The translations under genes and the position numbers were made by a program. A stretch of DNA of 64,000 nt from NCBI RefSeq assembly GCF_000737325.1, contig NZ_CP011125.1, positions 6,138,001-6,202,000 on the forward strand, written 5' to 3'. Position 1 is the stretch's first letter, and the number at the start of each line of letters is the position of its first letter. The notes under the pieces were generated by a model. It ran no database searches. It was not told the origin of the DNA and worked only from the letters and a program-made list of their open reading frames with translations. Shown in pieces: positions 56,873-62,534 of this stretch. This DNA is from Sandaracinus amylolyticus (GTDB lineage Bacteria; Myxococcota_A; Polyangia; Polyangiales; Sandaracinaceae).

Positions 56873-57720
56873 TCGAGATCGAGCGCGTGGTGGGCCTCGC
56901 GTTCGTGCAGGACGGAGGACGCCCGGGCCGGCTGCGCGAAGGTGTGCCGCGCGGCGGCGCGCTGATCGCGAGCGCGCTCTCCGCTGCGAACCGCGCGCTC
57001 GGCAATCCCGGCGACGCCGCGGGCATCGAGCGCTACGGGGCGATGACGCTCGTGGCGCGCGGCGACGTGATGCTCGCGGACGACGACGCGCGCGTGTGGA
57101 CGCTGCGTGACGGGGAGCGCGTCGAGCTCGCGTGGGACGGCGCGCGCCGCGCGCGCTTCGTCGCGCTGCGTGGCGGGATCGACGTGCCGCGCGTGCTCGG
57201 AGGTCGAGGGACGCTCGTCGCCGCGCGCATCGGCGGTCTCGAAGGTCGTTCACTGCGGCGCGGCGACGTGCTGCGCGCGGAAAGCGAGCCGATGACGAAC
57301 GTGCGCGCGCGTCCCTGGCTCGCGCACGAAGGTCCGATCCGGATCGTCGCGGGGCCCGATCTCGCCGCGTACGCGCCGCGCGCGATCGACGTCCTCACGT
57401 CGCGCGCGTGGCGGCTCTCGACGCGCAGCGATCGCACCGGCACGAGGCTCGAGGGCGCGACAGTCCCGTGGCGCGAAGGCGCGCCCAGCGCGCGCACCAC
57501 GCCGATGATCGCCGGCGCGATCGAGCTCCCACCGGGCGGCGAGCCCATCGTGCTCGGCGTCGATCATCCGACGACCGGCGGCTATCCCGTCGTCGCGGTG
57601 ATCGCGCGCGTGGATCTCGATCGCTTCCACGCGATCCCGCTCGGTCGCGACGTGCGCTTCGCCGCGATCACGATCGACCATGCGCGCGTGTTGCTGGGTC
57701 AGAGCGGCGGCACGACGTAG
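56869..57720 (+). CDS. pxpC: 5-oxoprolinase subunit C (carboxyltransferase domain 2)
   Basis: 283 residues (ATG 56869). FVQDGGRPGRLREGVPRGGA and ANRALGNPGDAAGIERYGAM correspond to the AHS2/KipA N-terminal block; RLSTRSDRTGTRLEGATVPW and PIVLGVDHPTTGGYPVVAVI to the C-terminal block. Completes the oxoprolinase. Its final 22 bp overlap the end of the convergent DyP-like gene. Confidence 0.92.
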   Translation: MIEIERVVGLAFVQDGGRPGRLREGVPRGGALIASALSAANRALGNPGDAAGIERYGAMTLVARGDVMLADDDARVWTLRDGERVELAWDGARRARFVALRGGIDVPRVLGGRGTLVAARIGGLEGRSLRRGDVLRAESEPMTNVRARPWLAHEGPIRIVAGPDLAAYAPRAIDVLTSRAWRLSTRSDRTGTRLEGATVPWREGAPSARTTPMIAGAIELPPGGEPIVLGVDHPTTGGYPVVAVIARVDLDRFHAIPLGRDVRFAAITIDHARVLLGQSGGTT

Positions 57721-58550
57721 AGCCCACCGCCGATCGCCTCGACGTAGTCGAGCATCGCGTCGGTGATCCCATCGCGGGCACCGAGCATCGCGTCGAGCGT
57801 CTGCTCGAAGATCTCCGGTGCGCGCGCGATCGCGACGTAGACGAGCCCCTCATCGCCCCACGCGCGATACGGGAACCCGCGACGCACCATCGCGTGCTGG
57901 TGCACACGACGCACGTGCGCGCGCTGCGGCGCGTCGGAGATCGCAACGCCCTCGGTGGTACGCCCGACCACGCGCTCGCGATCGGCCTCGCGGCGCGCGA
58001 AGAAGCGCGCGCGATGCTGGACGTAGCGCTGGTGCAGCAGGAACGTCGCGCCCTCGAGCGGGCCCTCGTGCACCAGCGCCGCGCGCACGTCGTCGTGCGT
58101 CGGCACGCGCGGCTCGCGGAACCCGAAGGGCTCGCGGCGATCGTGCGGCCAGCCTCCTTCGATCTCTTCGTCGCGATCCGCGATCGTCCCGAGCAGCGCG
58201 TCGGCGCGTCGGAGCGCCTCGATCAACCCGTCGCGCTCGTCGCTCGCGATCTGCACGAGCACGGAGCCCCGCGTCGAAGGCATCGTGCGCCCCGCGTGCG
58301 CGCGCGGCAGCACGCGCTCCGCCGGCAGCGCCTCGCGCTCGTGCGCGTCGAGGAGCGGCGGCGCGATCGCGACGAGCACGCTGCGATCGATCAACGCCGT
58401 CGCGCGCATGCGCAGGAACGCGGTGGACACGCCGTCACGCGCGCGCCACACGACGACCGCCGCGTGCGCGCCAGGACCGTGGAACAGCGCGGGCTGCGGA
58501 CGTGGATCGCGCACTCGATGGCTGTGCCCTCCGCAGCGATCGGCCGGCAA
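57699..58550 (-). CDS. DyP-type peroxidase-like protein with altered catalytic motif
   Basis: 283 residues from TTG 58550 (start uncertain). The C-terminal half fits the DyP fold: RRVHQHAMVRRGFPYRAWGD (heme-pocket region), EGLVYVAIARAPEIFEQTLD, and the closing YVEAIGGGLYVVPP. The family GxxDG motif, with its catalytic Asp, reads FGFREPRVP here, so the Asp is Glu and the Gly is Pro. It may be a weak or non-peroxidative heme protein. No signal peptide or encapsulin gene is seen nearby. Confidence 0.75.
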   Translation of the reverse strand: MPADRCGGHSHRVRDPRPQPALFHGPGAHAAVVVWRARDGVSTAFLRMRATALIDRSVLVAIAPPLLDAHEREALPAERVLPRAHAGRTMPSTRGSVLVQIASDERDGLIEALRRADALLGTIADRDEEIEGGWPHDRREPFGFREPRVPTHDDVRAALVHEGPLEGATFLLHQRYVQHRARFFARREADRERVVGRTTEGVAISDAPQRAHVRRVHQHAMVRRGFPYRAWGDEGLVYVAIARAPEIFEQTLDAMLGARDGITDAMLDYVEAIGGGLYVVPPL

Positions 58551-58583: not shown

Positions 58584-58600
58584 CGTGATGTTCGATCACG
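58584..58600. promoter_or_regulatory. Dyad upstream of the signalling operon
   Basis: CGTGAT (58584-58589) and ATCACG (58595-58600) separated by GTTCG, about 30 bp before the first start codon. It could be an operator for the LuxR-type regulator encoded later in the operon; this is inference. Confidence 0.35.
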
Positions 58601-58628
58601 TCTTCTCTGAAAGCCGGAGGGAGCCCTC

Positions 58629-58964
58629 ATGTCGTACGGAGATCCCGCGAATCCAGGCTCGCCCACGAGCGGTGGACCGCAGCTCGTCAACTATCCACTC
58701 ACGCACTCGACGTTCGACTACCTGCGTCGGCTGATGTCGCTCGGCGTGATGGAGGGCCCGCTCGGGAAGATGGCGGTCGCCGAGGCGCTGCGGCCCGTCT
58801 TCGACGCGATGCACGTCGTGCTCGCGGGCGGAGAGGTGAAGATCGACGTGGTCCGACGCGGTCACCCCGACACGATGCGCGAGCTGCAGGCGCGCTACGA
58901 GCAAGCCGCCGCGGACGCGAACGCGATCAACGAGAAGAGCGGCTGGTACGTGACGATCACCTGA
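58629..58964 (+). CDS. Small protein of unknown function; candidate peptide-signal precursor
   Basis: 111 residues, ATG 58629 with GGAGGGAG. No signal peptide. Central helix-forming part (YLRRLMSLGVMEGPLGKMAV, RPVFDAMHVVLAGGEVKIDV) and a charged helix (MRELQARYEQAAADANAINE). The only Trp is residue 106, in the end sequence EKSGWYVTIT. It lies two bases before a sensor-kinase gene in an operon with an isoprenyl-transferase-like protein. ComX pheromone precursors of Bacillus also carry a lone Trp near the C-terminus, which ComQ prenylates. It is longer than ComX (about 55-75 residues), so the parallel is only suggestive. Confidence 0.75.
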   Translation: MSYGDPANPGSPTSGGPQLVNYPLTHSTFDYLRRLMSLGVMEGPLGKMAVAEALRPVFDAMHVVLAGGEVKIDVVRRGHPDTMRELQARYEQAAADANAINEKSGWYVTIT

Positions 58965-58966
58965 CC

Positions 58967-60271
58967 ATGCTCCGTCGACTCGACGACTGGTCGAAGCAGC
59001 TCGACCCCGAGCTCCTGCGCGCGGCGTTCTCGCCGGGACAGGTCGCGATCATCGCGGTGTGGGTGCTCGGCCTCGTCGCGGTCGACGCGCTCTCGCCCGG
59101 CGTGCGCGCGTTCCTCGAGCTGCGCGGCGGCGCGCTCCTCGCCGCGACGGGCCCGGTGATGCTGCTCCTGCTCGCGCTCTCGTTCGCGTGGGTGCGCGGC
59201 ACGCTCGCGCGACGCGCGGCACCGATCGCGCTGCTCGTCGGCACGTGGTGCGTCGCGTTCGTCGCGGCCGCGCTCGTCGTGTTCGCGTCGGATCGTGCGG
59301 CGCCCGTGTTCGGCGCGATGATCGTGACGACCGCGATGGTGCACGGATACCAGGCGCGCTCGACGCTGCAGCATCCGTTCGTCGCGATCGCGGACGCGCT
59401 CGCGTTCGCGATCGCCGCGACGCTCGCGACGAGCAGCACCCAGCTCGTCGTGCTCTCGATCACCGGCCCCGCGGGCGTGGTGGGCGGGATGATGCTCGGC
59501 TGGGCGACGGTGCGGAGCGAGCGGCTGCGCGCGCAGCGCGAGCACCTGAGGGAAGCGCTCGAGGCACAGCTCGCGCGCGAGCGCGCGCGTCGCGCCGACG
59601 AGGTGCGCGGCATCCTCGTCGACGCCCAGGCCCGCGCTCACGACGTCCGCAACGCACTGATGGGCGCGCTCTCCGCGCTCGAGAGCGCGGCGGCGGGATA
59701 TCGCGTGTCGGCCGACACCGAGCGCGAGCTCGATCGCGCTCGCGTCGCGCTGCGCTCGGCGATCGACATCACGCGCCCCACGCTCTCGTCGTCGCCGAGC
59801 CGCGAGCCGGTCGCGCTGGAGCCGGTGCTGCAGCGCACGCTCGAGCTCGTCGGCGGACGCTTCCGCCACGTCGATCTCGCGATCGTGCCGAACGGCCGCG
59901 AGCACGTGTCGGTGGAGGTCGACGGCGGCGCGACGTCGCTCGAGCGCATGCTCTCGAACCTCCTCGTCAACGCGTGCGAGGGCGACGGCGCGAGGAGCGC
60001 GGCGCGCGTGCGCGTGATCGTCGAGGAGATGGTCGATCCCGCGATGTCGATCGTGTGCGTCGAGGACGACGGGCCGGGCTTCGCGAAGGATCACCTCGAC
60101 GCGCCGATCACCGGGTTCCGCTCGACGAAGCCGGAGGGCACCGGGCTCGGTCTCTTCACCGTCGATCGTCTCGCGGGCGCGAGCGGCGGTTGGATCGAGC
60201 GACACAACGCACGCACCGGCGGCGCGGTCGTGCGGCTCGTGCTGCCTCGCGCGAGCGGAGCGAGCGCATGA
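58967..60271 (+). CDS. Membrane sensor histidine kinase
   Basis: 434 residues. Five or six membrane helices fill residues 25-180 with little extracytoplasmic sequence, suggesting a ligand sensed within the membrane. A coiled region (185-215) leads to the H-box His225 (QARAHDVRNALMGAL), then Asn335 in NLLVNACEG (N box), DDGPGF at 367-372 and GTGLGL at 391-396. The H-box type differs from the HisKA_3 form of Bacillus ComP. ATGA overlap with the next gene. The LuxR-type regulator three genes on is the likely partner. Confidence 0.92.
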   Translation: MLRRLDDWSKQLDPELLRAAFSPGQVAIIAVWVLGLVAVDALSPGVRAFLELRGGALLAATGPVMLLLLALSFAWVRGTLARRAAPIALLVGTWCVAFVAAALVVFASDRAAPVFGAMIVTTAMVHGYQARSTLQHPFVAIADALAFAIAATLATSSTQLVVLSITGPAGVVGGMMLGWATVRSERLRAQREHLREALEAQLARERARRADEVRGILVDAQARAHDVRNALMGALSALESAAAGYRVSADTERELDRARVALRSAIDITRPTLSSSPSREPVALEPVLQRTLELVGGRFRHVDLAIVPNGREHVSVEVDGGATSLERMLSNLLVNACEGDGARSAARVRVIVEEMVDPAMSIVCVEDDGPGFAKDHLDAPITGFRSTKPEGTGLGLFTVDRLAGASGGWIERHNARTGGAVVRLVLPRASGASA

Positions 60272-60999
60272 GCGAAGGCGCGGTGTACCGCGAGGCGCTC
60301 GCGTGGATCGTCGCGCTCGAGCTCGAGCCGGCGACGGAGCGCGATCTCGTGCGCTGCCTCGACGCGGCGCGCACCGGGCCGCTCGGGTTCGTCTACGCGG
60401 CGTGCGTCGAGTCGGGCGTGGACGCGGCGCGCGCGCGAGCGCGTGCCGCAGGGGCGTTCTTCTCGTTCGCCGCGGGCAATCTCGCCGACGATCTCGCGGA
60501 CGGAGACTGCACGTACCTCGAGCCCGCGCACCGCGTCGGGCCGTGCGCGCAGTTCGCGCTCCAGAACGCCGCGTGGTCGACGTGGTCGGGCGCGGGTGAC
60601 GTCGATCGCGAGACGCTGCGCGCGATCGGTCGCGATCTCGTGCGCGCCGCATCGCTGCAGCACGTCGAGGTGCGGACGCAGCGCTTCGATCTCGTGACGA
60701 CGCAGCGCATCGCCGAGGCGATGGGCGGCCTCCAGTACGGCGCGTACCTGCGCGCGGCGTGGTGCGGCACCGAGCTCGCGGAGCACGCCGCGGAGGTCGG
60801 CACCGCGCTCGGCACGGCGGGCTTCGTCGCCGAGGACCTCCGCAGCGACGACCCGCGCGTCACCACGCTGCCGGACGACGATCGCCGCGCGCTCGCACGA
60901 TGGGCCGACGCGCTCCTCGATCGCGCGCGCGCGATCGACCTCCCCTCGCTCGCCGGCGCGTGCGCGCCGATCACCGCGCGCTTGAGGTCCGTCTCGTGA
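60268..60999 (+). CDS. Short isoprenyl-diphosphate synthase-like / ComQ-like protein
   Basis: 243 residues, shorter than real polyprenyl synthases (about 300-350) and closer in size to ComQ. First Asp-rich motif intact: AAGNLADDLADGD, with DDxxD at 74-78. Weak second motif around 189-195 (GFVAEDLRSDDPRVTTLP), which keeps the pattern of the family's DLRDx...LP region but not a full DDxxD. GGLQYGAYLRAAWCGTELAE fits the internal helix. Probably transfers or binds an isoprenyl diphosphate. It is coupled by 4-bp overlaps to the kinase gene before it and the methyltransferase gene after it. Confidence 0.75.
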   Translation: MSEGAVYREALAWIVALELEPATERDLVRCLDAARTGPLGFVYAACVESGVDAARARARAAGAFFSFAAGNLADDLADGDCTYLEPAHRVGPCAQFALQNAAWSTWSGAGDVDRETLRAIGRDLVRAASLQHVEVRTQRFDLVTTQRIAEAMGGLQYGAYLRAAWCGTELAEHAAEVGTALGTAGFVAEDLRSDDPRVTTLPDDDRRALARWADALLDRARAIDLPSLAGACAPITARLRSVS

Positions 61000-61859
61000 G
61001 CGCCGCGGCGCGCAGCGCTCCTCCGCCTCCACCGCAGCCGACCGCTCGTCCGCGCGCGCTGCGACCCGCGCGACCGCGCGATCCCGTCGCTGCGTACTAC
61101 CGCGACAAGACCGAGAGCATCCTGCGCAAGTACGGTCCCGGCCCGCGCGTACACTTCCACACCGGGCTCGTCGACGACGACCACGACGGCGCGCACGACC
61201 TCCGCCTCGCGATGACGCGCGCGCAGGAGCGCTTGCTCGATCACGTCCGCGACACACTCGCGCTGCCCGCAGGCGCGCGGATCCTCGACGTCGGCTGCGG
61301 CCTCGGAGGCAGCGCGCTCTACTTCGCGAGCGCGGGGCACGACGTCGTCGCGATCACCAACGAGCGCTCGCACGTCGCGATCGCAGCTCGCTTCGCGCGC
61401 GAGGCCGGCGTCGCCCAACGCGTCCGGTTCGAGCACCGCGACGCTCACGCGCCGCCCGACGAGCGCTTCGATGCCGCGATCGCGATCGAGTCGTCCTGCT
61501 ACTTCGATCGCGCGCGATGGATGCGCGCGACCAGCGCATGCCTGCGCCCGGGCGGCGTGCTGTACGTCGTCGACTGCTTCGTCGGTGACGACGACGAGCG
61601 CGCGTGGTTCGACGCGCGATGGCGCACGCGCATCGGCCCCGAGCCGGAGTACGCCCGAGCGGCCTCGCGCGCCGGGCTCGATCGCGTGCACGACGACGAT
61701 CTCGCGCCGCGCGCGCTGCGCTTCTGGGATCTCAGCATCGCGTGGATCCGCACGACCACCGCGGATCACGAGGGCGTCGAGCGACACGCGCGACTTCGTG
61801 ATGCACTCGCGCGTGGAGCGATCCGCTATCGCTCGATGGCGTGGCGTCGAAAGGGATGA
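60996..61859 (+). CDS. Class I SAM-dependent methyltransferase
   Basis: 287 residues, GTG start overlapping the previous stop. SAM motif I is ARILDVGCGLGGSALYF (about 95-110), post-I VVAITNERSHVAIAARFARE, motif IV region AAIAIESSCYFDRARWM, motif VI CLRPGGVLYVVD. The N-terminus has VAAYYRDKTESILRKYGPGP RVHFH, a lead-in seen in small-molecule methyltransferases. Context suggests its substrate is an isoprenoid or the modified peptide, but this is inference; it does not resemble the geranyl diphosphate C-methyltransferase of 2-methylisoborneol synthesis. Confidence 0.85.
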   Translation: MSAAARSAPPPPPQPTARPRALRPARPRDPVAAYYRDKTESILRKYGPGPRVHFHTGLVDDDHDGAHDLRLAMTRAQERLLDHVRDTLALPAGARILDVGCGLGGSALYFASAGHDVVAITNERSHVAIAARFAREAGVAQRVRFEHRDAHAPPDERFDAAIAIESSCYFDRARWMRATSACLRPGGVLYVVDCFVGDDDERAWFDARWRTRIGPEPEYARAASRAGLDRVHDDDLAPRALRFWDLSIAWIRTTTADHEGVERHARLRDALARGAIRYRSMAWRRKG

Positions 61860-61898
61860 CGACAGCGCGCGCGCATCGTCTACTCTCGAACCGACATC

Positions 61899-62534
61899 AT
61901 GAAACGCGTCTTGGTGGTCGAGGACGATCCACACGGGGCCGAAGCCGTCGCGCGCGTCGTGCGCAGACACGCCGAGGTCGTCATACGAAGCACACGCGCG
62001 GATGCGCTCGCCGAGCTCGATGGGGTCGGCCGCGAGGGTTGGATCGCCGTGATCATCGACGTCGGGCTCGCGGACGGCTCGGGGCTCGAGCTGCTCGCGG
62101 ACATTCGCCAGCGCTGGGACGATCTTCCGGCGCTCGTCGTCACGGGCCAGGACAGCCGCGCGCTCGCGAACCGCGCGCAGGCGCTGCGCGCGGAGTTCGC
62201 GTTCAAGCCCTTCGGCCCCGACAACGTGCTGCGCTTCGTCGAGAGCGCGATCGCGCGCGATCCCGACGCGCGCGTCGCGCAGGTGATCGACGAGCTCGCG
62301 ACCGCGTGGGGGCTCACGCCGCGCGAGCGCGAGATCGTGACGCTCGTGGTCGCGGGCCACTCGCGCGACGGCGTGATGGTGATCCTCGGCGTCACCGAGA
62401 ACACGCTGAAGAGCCAGACGCGCAGCTTGCTGCACAAGGCCCGCGCGGCATCGCTCGAGGCGGTCGCGCGCGCCGTGCTCGAGCGCGCGGTGGGCCTTCC
62501 GCTCGCGCCGGGCACGGTGCCGGAACGGCGGTAG
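61899..62534 (+). CDS. Response regulator with LuxR/NarL-type HTH
   Basis: 211 residues. Receiver domain: acidic pair Asp9-Asp10 (VLVVEDDP), phospho-acceptor Asp54 (AVIIDVGLADGSG), Thr82 and Lys103 (FAFKPFGPDN). C-terminal HTH: GLTPREREIVTLVVAGHSRD, then GVMVILGVTENTLKSQTRSL, a GerE/NarL-type fold with a slightly unusual helix (GVMVILGV for the usual IAxxLxI). It sits 39 bp after the methyltransferase gene. It should be the output of the kinase upstream. Confidence 0.92.
   Translation: MKRVLVVEDDPHGAEAVARVVRRHAEVVIRSTRADALAELDGVGREGWIAVIIDVGLADGSGLELLADIRQRWDDLPALVVTGQDSRALANRAQALRAEFAFKPFGPDNVLRFVESAIARDPDARVAQVIDELATAWGLTPREREIVTLVVAGHSRDGVMVILGVTENTLKSQTRSLLHKARAASLEAVARAVLERAVGLPLAPGTVPERR

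Follow-up and report, generated by a model that had tools for sequence, protein, structure and literature searches.

A candidate prenyl-dependent two-component signalling operon in the myxobacterium Sandaracinus amylolyticus

Does a compact operon of Sandaracinus amylolyticus encode a two-component system that responds to a prenylated product, and does it belong to the ComQXPA systems? Two-component systems that respond to prenylated peptides are known from Firmicutes, among them ComQXPA of Bacillus subtilis and other members of this phylum (PMC4008528, PMC5331326); a 2014 census found none beyond it (PMC4008528). A preliminary description of the 64,000-nucleotide stretch analysed here (the window; contig NZ_CP011125.1, positions 6,138,001 to 6,202,000) read five of its genes as a ComQXPA-like operon with an added methylation step. 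Our analysis upholds the linkage of a prenyltransferase-like enzyme, a kinase, a regulator and a small protein (P1), as well as the methylation step; it does not support membership of ComQXPA or prenylation of the Trp residue.

The five genes lie on the plus strand (Table 1). Recomputed coordinates reproduce the tight packing as first described, with gaps and overlaps of +2, -4, -4 and +39 bp in order, and the described motifs are present. Third-position G+C is 0.85-0.93 across all five frames. A second Sandaracinus species (G024) keeps all five genes in the same order with nearly the same gaps, and Ka/Ks between the two species ranges from 0.06 to 0.40. The upstream dyad is kept too. These are genuine genes under selection. 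The transferase and the methyltransferase diverge faster than the regulator in this comparison. Genes for a protease or an exporter are absent.

Table 1. Features of the operon and its upstream region; positions are counted from the first nucleotide of the window.
Feature	Position	Strand	Remarks
Inverted repeat CGTGAT-GTTCG-ATCACG	58584..58600		Between divergent DyP-peroxidase gene and operon
Small protein P1	58629..58964	+	111 aa; ATG start; GGAGGG ribosome-binding site
Sensor histidine kinase	58967..60271	+	434 aa
Trans-isoprenyl-diphosphate-synthase-like prenyltransferase (putative)	60268..60999	+	243 aa
SAM-dependent methyltransferase, prenyl-diphosphate C6-methyltransferase type	60996..61859	+	287 aa; GTG start
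Response regulator, receiver + LuxR/FixJ-type HTH	61899..62534	+	211 aa

The upstream neighbour of the operon is a divergent DyP-peroxidase gene. The dyad reported ahead of the operon was located in the region common to both; it ends 28 bp before the first ATG and is identical in the second Sandaracinus. Across the 10.3 Mb of the genome, however, there are 7 exact copies of its pattern (129 with one mismatch permitted), and CGATC words are abundant, so the upstream position alone is no evidence of a regulatory site. Conservation in both species, within this common region, is mildly supportive of a regulatory role. Use of the dyad as a regulon marker was rejected, as the other sites lie in or between apparently unrelated genes.

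The methyltransferase gives the most specific indication of chemistry. It is about 40% identical to BezA, a C6-GPP methyltransferase (PMC12929941), and to C6-FPP-MT, and among all PDB sequences it scores best against 7fbh (E = 2e-41) and 9tb4 (5e-40), the next best reaching 7e-21. The added methylation step that had been proposed can thus be assigned more specifically to the prenyl-diphosphate C6-methyltransferase type. The catalytic glutamate (Glu165) is conserved, as are the pocket residues Tyr46 and Phe54 (of the Tyr37/Phe45 type) and the pair Phe243/Trp244, which positions C6. With this closeness to BezA and C6-FPP-MT, and with the catalytic Glu and aromatic pocket retained, the substrate is most likely a prenyl donor rather than a peptide. 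His194 and Gln192 of C6-FPP-MT are replaced by Cys194 and Val192, and Ile205/Tyr209 by Phe205/Trp209, so that chain length and regiochemistry may differ. C6-methyltransferases usually supply terpene synthases (PMC12929941), and many bacterial relatives of the enzyme are encoded next to one.

The putative transferase had been called isoprenyl-transferase-like, with a degenerate second Asp motif, and its motifs bear this out. The first Asp motif (FARM; DDLAD, residues 74-78) is intact. In the second (EDLRSDD, 189-195), the pseudo-SARM EDLRS (189-193) keeps only the second Asp, as described for ComQ (PMC5331326). A relative encoded in the distant genome G404 has the FARM DDLQD and the pseudo-SARM ADIET, which likewise retains the second Asp. 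The first pseudo-SARM residue is Glu189 here and Ala in G404; ComQ has Asn or Gly. A Gln just upstream of the SARM, linked to Trp recognition in peptide prenyltransferases of the trans-isoprenyl-diphosphate-synthase (trans-IDS)-like type, is Phe186 here and is kept in G404. The terpene-synthase NSE triad, (N/D)Dxx(S/T)xxxE, is not found in either protein: EDLRSDDPR lacks the final Glu, and the G404 relative reads ADIETADTR.

Family assignment of the transferase was less direct. Pfam and NCBIfam gave nothing usable, and PF00348 did not match the window protein, using a profile that does detect the genome's four real synthases. A search of 97 Polyangiales and 284 Myxococcota raised the sister species alone above noise; a scan of genome contigs gave zero matches. 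The G404 protein serves as a bridge. Along 174 aa it is 24% identical to the window transferase, with a score of 27.6 bits where decoys reach no more than 15. It also matches PF00348 at 5e-5, which is below the cut-off, and, at 1e-4, an octaprenyl-diphosphate synthase of solved structure. Comparison by hhalign with terpene synthases and the genome's own prenyl synthases gave no signal either way, as the two-sequence profile was too thin. The AlphaFold model is of low confidence (pLDDT 51), with trans-IDS and MoeN5, of the PF00348 superfamily, as best structural matches in the PDB. Together, model and bridging homologue point to a divergent trans-IDS-like enzyme.

P1 has a flexible N-terminus, a conserved core (residues ~20-101) and a variable C-terminal tail, here EKSGWYVTIT. 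Its homologues are found in the second Sandaracinus (97% identical), G343 (48%), G404 (35%) and, weakly, G074. Neither Pfam nor NCBIfam assigns P1 to a family, and by homology it belongs to an undescribed Myxococcota protein family. As reported, Trp106 in the end SGWYVTIT is the sole Trp. It had been expected to be invariant while the rest of the protein varied, and its loss had been named as evidence against the ComQXPA-like reading. Trp106 is kept in the two Sandaracinus, replaced by Tyr in G343 and missing from the tail in G404; each of the three clear homologues has a Tyr in its tail. The core is conserved rather than hypervariable, and with a Ka/Ks of 0.09 between the two Sandaracinus, P1 is under strong purifying selection and among the most conserved of the five proteins.

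No match to ComX (PF05952) was found in P1 itself, which is longer than ComX, as noted earlier. A genome scan with PF05952 returned nothing over the cut-off, a weak result on its own because the B. subtilis control also fell under it. Leader families including NHLP gave no match at E <= 1 for three members of the P1 family. The AlphaFold model is of low confidence (pLDDT 47), with no convincing structural match, and the tail may be a beta-strand within a folded protein. Plasmids and phages were searched and gave no credible occurrence; the sole plasmid match runs antisense to an annotated gene and was taken as chance. We regard P1 as a candidate precursor or acceptor, or as an accessory protein.

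The kinase was described as a multi-pass protein with almost no external domain, and indeed has about six membrane helices and no large external domain, with the H-box AHDVRNAL and HATPase_c. A domain search found HATPase_c only; HisKA_3 (PF07730) was absent, and the H-box had earlier been noted not to be of the ComP type. No domain for binding a cue could be recognised in the protein. Between the two Sandaracinus, the sensor region is 86% and the catalytic part 84% identical, so that the former is not hypervariable in this comparison of only two close species. A kinase in G343, encoded directly 3' of the P1 homologue, has a sensor region 30% identical to that of the window protein (E = 2e-20). 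The regulator combines a PF00072 receiver with a PF00196 LuxR HTH and is 97% identical in the second Sandaracinus (Ka/Ks 0.06). Its counterpart has a Fis-type HTH in G343 and consists of the receiver only in G404. Homologues in other families are 41-46% identical, and those of their loci that we examined showed no match to the P1 or transferase profiles.

The module recurs in a distant myxobacterium with its gene order rearranged and parts exchanged. In the G404 operon, genes for a P1 homologue and for the relative of the transferase are joined by those for a multi-pass kinase homologous to the one here, for a B12/radical-SAM enzyme and for a receiver protein, so that two unrelated methyl-type enzymes hold the equivalent place in two lineages, the only two in which the complete five-part set was seen. 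In G343, regulator, P1 homologue and homologous kinase are contiguous, and the kinase gene runs off the contig end; the rest of the operon was not found on the 80 other contigs of this draft genome, which says nothing either way on co-occurrence of the transferase. The proposed co-occurrence of P1, transferase, kinase and regulator thus holds in the second Sandaracinus and in G404 and fails for the weak G074 homologue, which adjoins a Ser/Thr kinase with no transferase within the 6 kb examined.

The operon is a real, conserved two-component signalling module that probably depends on a prenyl group; its product and the sensing of that product we infer. The explanation we favour, and which we consider about evenly balanced between right and wrong, makes the P1 tail the likeliest acceptor and the kinase the sensor of the lipidated product. 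The methyltransferase would methylate geranyl or farnesyl diphosphate at C6, and the transferase would bind the resulting branched donor at DDLAD and join it to an acceptor that sits at the degenerate second motif. That acceptor would most likely be the P1 tail, in view of the leader-like conserved core and the variable aromatic tail. The kinase would sense the lipidated product, whole or processed, within the membrane, and the regulator would then control the operon and possibly also the divergent DyP-peroxidase gene. In favour of this explanation are the conservation of the five-gene set in two Sandaracinus species, the gene arrangements in G404 and G343, the types of the methyltransferase and the transferase, the ComQ-like FARM and pseudo-SARM, the unrelated methyl-type enzymes in equivalent places and a comparable gene cluster in Paenibacillus. 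Speaking against it are the conservation of P1 and its possibly beta-stranded tail, the unconserved Trp, the Phe in place of the Trp-recognition Gln, the lack of a protease or exporter gene, the G074 homologue with no transferase within 6 kb, the weak direct sequence link of the transferase to known families, its fold being drawn from a low-confidence model and one bridging homologue, and the occurrence of the full set in only two lineages. Less likely than not, though still a serious candidate, is a Gram-negative lipopeptide pheromone in which a C-methylated branched prenyl group sits on the tail of a leader-type protein with a conserved sequence and is read by a multi-pass kinase, the methyl group coming from a dedicated prenyl-diphosphate methyltransferase or perhaps, elsewhere, from a B12/radical-SAM enzyme.

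Strong conservation of P1, its partly folded appearance and its unconserved tail Trp would fit a small methylated isoprenoid as the signal or product sensed by the kinase. It could be free or cyclised, or be linked to a small acceptor, for instance an amino acid, with P1 as a conserved accessory (a carrier, transferase partner or kinase modulator, for example) rather than substrate. C6-methyltransferases normally serve terpene synthases (PMC12929941), and the distant P1 homologue beside a Ser/Thr kinase has no transferase nearby. We nevertheless consider this alternative rather unlikely: the NSE glutamate is missing from the transferase, whose relative resembles prenyl rather than terpene synthases, FARM plus pseudo-SARM is the pattern of peptide or indole prenyltransferases, and the kept core and variable tail of P1 look precursor-like. 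An ordinary two-component system could instead respond to an unrelated cue and switch on a small homoterpenoid biosynthetic operon, with P1 as an incidental regulator. A C6-methyltransferase with an isoprenoid enzyme is a typical minimal homoterpene cluster, and both enzymes evolve faster than the regulator, like biosynthetic genes. This is improbable, as P1, multi-pass kinase and transferase are again linked to a methyl enzyme in a distant genome, where that enzyme is of an unrelated type, which incidental regulatory genes would hardly explain, and as no cue-binding domain can be recognised in the kinase.

A true, far-diverged ComQXPA, in which Trp106 of a pre-pheromone of the ComX kind receives a farnesyl or geranyl group from the transferase, would account for the gene content, the LuxR-type regulator, the FARM and pseudo-SARM pattern and a C-terminal Trp that falls in the ComX window. 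We think it very improbable, given the fate of Trp106 in G343 and G404, the lack of a ComX match in a protein of 111 aa (ComX has 52-73), the missing hypervariability, a kinase without HisKA_3, Glu or Ala in place of Asn or Gly in the pseudo-SARM, and Phe in place of the Trp-recognition Gln.

If the favoured explanation is correct, the operon extends the principle of prenyl-peptide signalling to myxobacteria, whose social behaviour relies on signals largely uncharacterised chemically, and shows that prenyl-diphosphate C6-methyltransferases, which are otherwise enzymes of terpene pathways, can serve in signalling. P1 defines a new small-protein family. In a 2026 review on the prenylation of peptides, a text search found no mention of Gram-negative, proteobacterial or myxobacterial cases, or of methylated prenyl donors.

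Compared with known enzymes, the transferase (only 243 aa) departs from trans-IDS in having lost the second Asp-rich motif (DDxxD), KT and FQ, and the methyltransferase differs from BezA and C6-FPP-MT in its partner, which is a prenyltransferase-like protein with a two-component system instead of a terpene synthase. Paenibacillus has a cluster in which a trans-IDS-like prenyltransferase is encoded together with a RiPP precursor and a kinase (PMC10853753). PalPXQ of Paenibacillus alvei (PMC10853753) shares with our operon the kinase and a trans-IDS-like prenyltransferase, which in PalPXQ acts on a peptide. The PalPXQ precursor, PalX, has a conserved leader, which is of the NHLP kind, and its Trp is strictly C-terminal; P1 gave no NHLP family match at E <= 1, and its unconserved Trp lies inside the tail. 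The three-gene PalPXQ cluster was described without a methyltransferase, which our operon has. ComQXPA shares the tight operon of trans-IDS-like prenyltransferase, aromatic-tailed small protein, multi-pass kinase and LuxR-type regulator, and the same intact FARM with a pseudo-SARM reduced to the second Asp. The differences are homology to ComX and HisKA_3, the first pseudo-SARM residue, an invariant Trp in ComX as against a variable one in the conserved and about twice as long P1, and hypervariable ComX, ComQ and sensor region, as opposed to P1 and the kinase sensor region here (in two close species). Membership of ComQXPA is therefore not supported; the operon, which we assign to neither system, appears to resemble ComQXPA and PalPXQ in working logic, with the prenyl-diphosphate methyltransferase as an addition relative to ComQXPA.

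The five genes, with their lengths, gaps and motifs, occur in the window exactly as listed in the preliminary description, and all five frames are coding, given their third-position G+C of 0.85-0.93. The window genome is complete (10,327,335 bp), and the window spans G000:C1:6138001-6202000 in it. A second Sandaracinus species (G024) has the whole operon too, in unchanged gene order and with almost identical spacing, and the two copies share flanking DyP-peroxidase, 5-oxoprolinase-type and GreA genes. A third Sandaracinus genome, a fragmented 6-Mb draft, was searched for the transferase and the small protein, and neither gave a match. The dyad lies in the intergenic region between the peroxidase gene and the operon in both species, so that the peroxidase could be co-regulated with the operon. 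A 17-bp inverted repeat, CGTGATTCGTGATCACG, is found in identical form at G000:C1:2434160 (locus L139, window genome) and G024:C1:5109061 (L144), in the gap between the same gene pair in both species. Coordinates are collected in the table, together with amino-acid identity and Ka/Ks between the two species; the ratios indicate purifying selection. In the kinase, the catalytic half is as variable as the sensor half or more so.

Features of the Sandaracinus operon and related loci (identity and Ka/Ks: G000 versus G024)
Feature	Location	Strand	Identity	Ka/Ks	Remark
DyP-type peroxidase (PF20628)	window 57699-58550	-			divergent from operon
Dyad	window 58584-58600				
Small protein	window 58629-58964	+	97%	0.09	
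Kinase	window 58967-60271	+	86%	0.31	
Transferase	window 60268-60999	+	86%	0.29	
Methyltransferase	window 60996-61859	+	80%	0.40	
Regulator	window 61899-62534	+	97%	0.06	
G404 small protein	L180:4527-4868	-			
G404 transferase homologue	L180:3723-4520	-			
G404 multi-pass kinase	L180:2416-3750	-			
G404 B12-binding/radical-SAM protein	L180:875-2419	-			in place of SAM methyltransferase
G404 receiver protein	L180:464-832	-			
G404 second receiver-domain protein	L180:5300-6007	+			divergent, adjoins small-protein operon
G074 weak small-protein homologue	L009:939-1265				
G074 Ser/Thr kinase	L009:1276-3471				
Minicystis rosea DSM 24000 gene pair	L052:7779-9727				

The top matches of the methyltransferase (METHYLTRANSFERASE) in the whole PDB are BezA, which is the geranyl-diphosphate C6-methyltransferase (E 2e-41), and C6-FPP-MT (E 5e-40); the entry ranked after these two has E 7e-21. 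Among the C6-FPP-MT residues identified as needed for catalysis or substrate placement (PMC12929941), Glu165, Thr211, Phe243 and Trp244 have the same numbers in the window protein, and Tyr37 and Phe45 correspond to Tyr46 and Phe54. His194 and Gln192 are replaced by Cys and Val, positions at which BezA likewise departs (Val and Glu). A scan of the family in 84,980 genomes recovered Streptomyces loci, in many of which the next gene encodes a terpene synthase. It also recovered Minicystis rosea, whose methyltransferase gene is followed by that of a 281-aa terpene synthase (PF19086, E 1e-12). By homology, the substrate of the window enzyme is very probably a prenyl diphosphate. The added methylation step proposed earlier therefore stands, its target most likely being the donor and not the peptide.

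The Minicystis pair, a C6-methyltransferase homologue (44%) and a short class I synthase with DDWFD and NDLASAEKE motifs, may represent a minimal homoterpene cluster of myxobacterial origin. Four further relatives (L051, L053, L054 and L088, from a deltaproteobacterial MAG and alphaproteobacterial and Hyphomicrobiales records) have Asp at the catalytic Glu position; no terpene synthase was recognised alongside them, and a large cyclase-like protein is next in three of the four.

The 243-aa transferase has no match in Pfam, NCBIfam or PDB sequences. Its AlphaFold model, built from two sequences, is poor (pLDDT 51) but shows only helices, with DDLAD ending one long helix and EDLRSDD another. Nearly all of the top Foldseek matches in the PDB belong to trans-isoprenyl diphosphate synthases or to the prenyltransferase MoeN5. 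Since their E-values are 0.2-1, and structural re-alignment, with Z near 6, also brought up unrelated helical proteins, the model alone is only suggestive of a trans-isoprenyl diphosphate synthase fold. A homologue in another myxococcotal genome, G404 (24% identity over 174 aligned residues), provides a stronger link to prenyl synthases than the structural model. With a two-sequence profile it scores 27.6 bits, whereas other open reading frames reach at most 15 and 3000 shuffles at most 7. Its own matches include PF00348 (5e-5) and a solved octaprenyl-diphosphate synthase (1e-4). The first Asp motif is intact in both proteins (DDLAD, DDLQD), and the second retains only its second Asp (EDLRS, ADIET), the pattern described for ComQ (PMC5331326). 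Unlike terpene synthases, both lack the final Glu of the NSE triad. The first residue of the degenerate motif is Asn or Gly in ComQ, but Glu in the window protein and Ala in G404. The PalQ-type Gln tied to Trp recognition (PMC13290415, a 2026 review) is present in G404, whereas the window protein has Phe186.

The 111-aa small protein is, by sequence comparison, the founder of a new, hitherto undescribed family; its predicted structure, like that of the transferase, is weak. A two-row profile gave a weak match in G074, and with this row added, clear members appeared in G343 and G404; the final profile covered about 380 sampled genomes, all Myxococcota. A Sandaracinus-only profile confirmed both (94.8 and 35.2 bits), as did pairwise BLASTP (6e-33 and 6e-13). 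Members share a core including AMHxxLAGGxV and the segment DANAIN, DANTIN or ETNAAN. Their tails differ (EKSGWYVTIT in Sandaracinus, SAAGYYVSLAP in G343, KLRDPDDGNILPYIP in G404), so that Trp106 is variable; Tyr is found in all three.

In G404 neighbouring genes overlap or lie apart by between a few bases and a few tens of bases. The B12-binding and radical-SAM architecture of one product suggests a methylase; an equivalog-level match was sought for it and none was found. In G343 (L179), a Fis-type response regulator, the small protein and a homologous kinase are contiguous, the contig ending within the kinase; no transferase was found in 80 other G343 contigs. All three kinases (Sandaracinus, G343 and G404) carry an HDxxN box and several membrane helices, about six in number, and the sensor regions of Sandaracinus and G343 are homologous (30%, 2e-20). 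In G074 (L009), a Ser/Thr kinase gene begins 11 bp after the weak homologue, and a hybrid histidine kinase comes next; the 6 kb examined contained no transferase. Small proteins associated with kinases thus possibly form a wider family. Across these loci, no pairing is more constant than that of the small protein with a multi-pass kinase. The transferase accompanies them in both lineages where the neighbourhood is visible (Sandaracinus and G404), and lineages differ in their methyl-type enzyme and in the type of regulator; this conservation argument draws on one full distant operon (G404) and one partial one (G343).

Building on the observed clustering, homology, motif conservation and purifying selection, we propose that a prenyl diphosphate would be methylated at C6 and its prenyl group then transferred to an acceptor, the product being sensed by the kinase, with feedback via the regulator. 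The acceptor is the weakest step of this scheme; we prefer the small-protein tail. A conserved core and a variable tail are typical of precursor peptides, but would also suit a normal folded protein whose end is loose. Alternatively, a small molecule may be the acceptor and the small protein an accessory. The lack of exporter and protease genes in the operon is not decisive, because the export and maturation protease of ComX are likewise unidentified (PMC4008528; PMC10853753).

Text searches of the literature, with subscription papers outside their coverage, returned no prior description of such an operon. Leaving aside the source organism of ChrPC, the third characterised peptide prenyltransferase of the ComQ/PalQ kind, we know of no earlier Gram-negative case of prenyl-dependent two-component signalling. 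The operon resembles both ComQXPA and PalPXQ by logic. The window transferase departs from PalQ in one feature, and the operon departs from ComQXPA in the ComX family, the Trp, hypervariability and HisKA_3. The selection pattern is the opposite of that of ComX, whose precursor is extremely variable (PMC4008528), whereas the Sandaracinus small protein is conserved. The operon is best called a new variation on prenyl-dependent two-component signalling.
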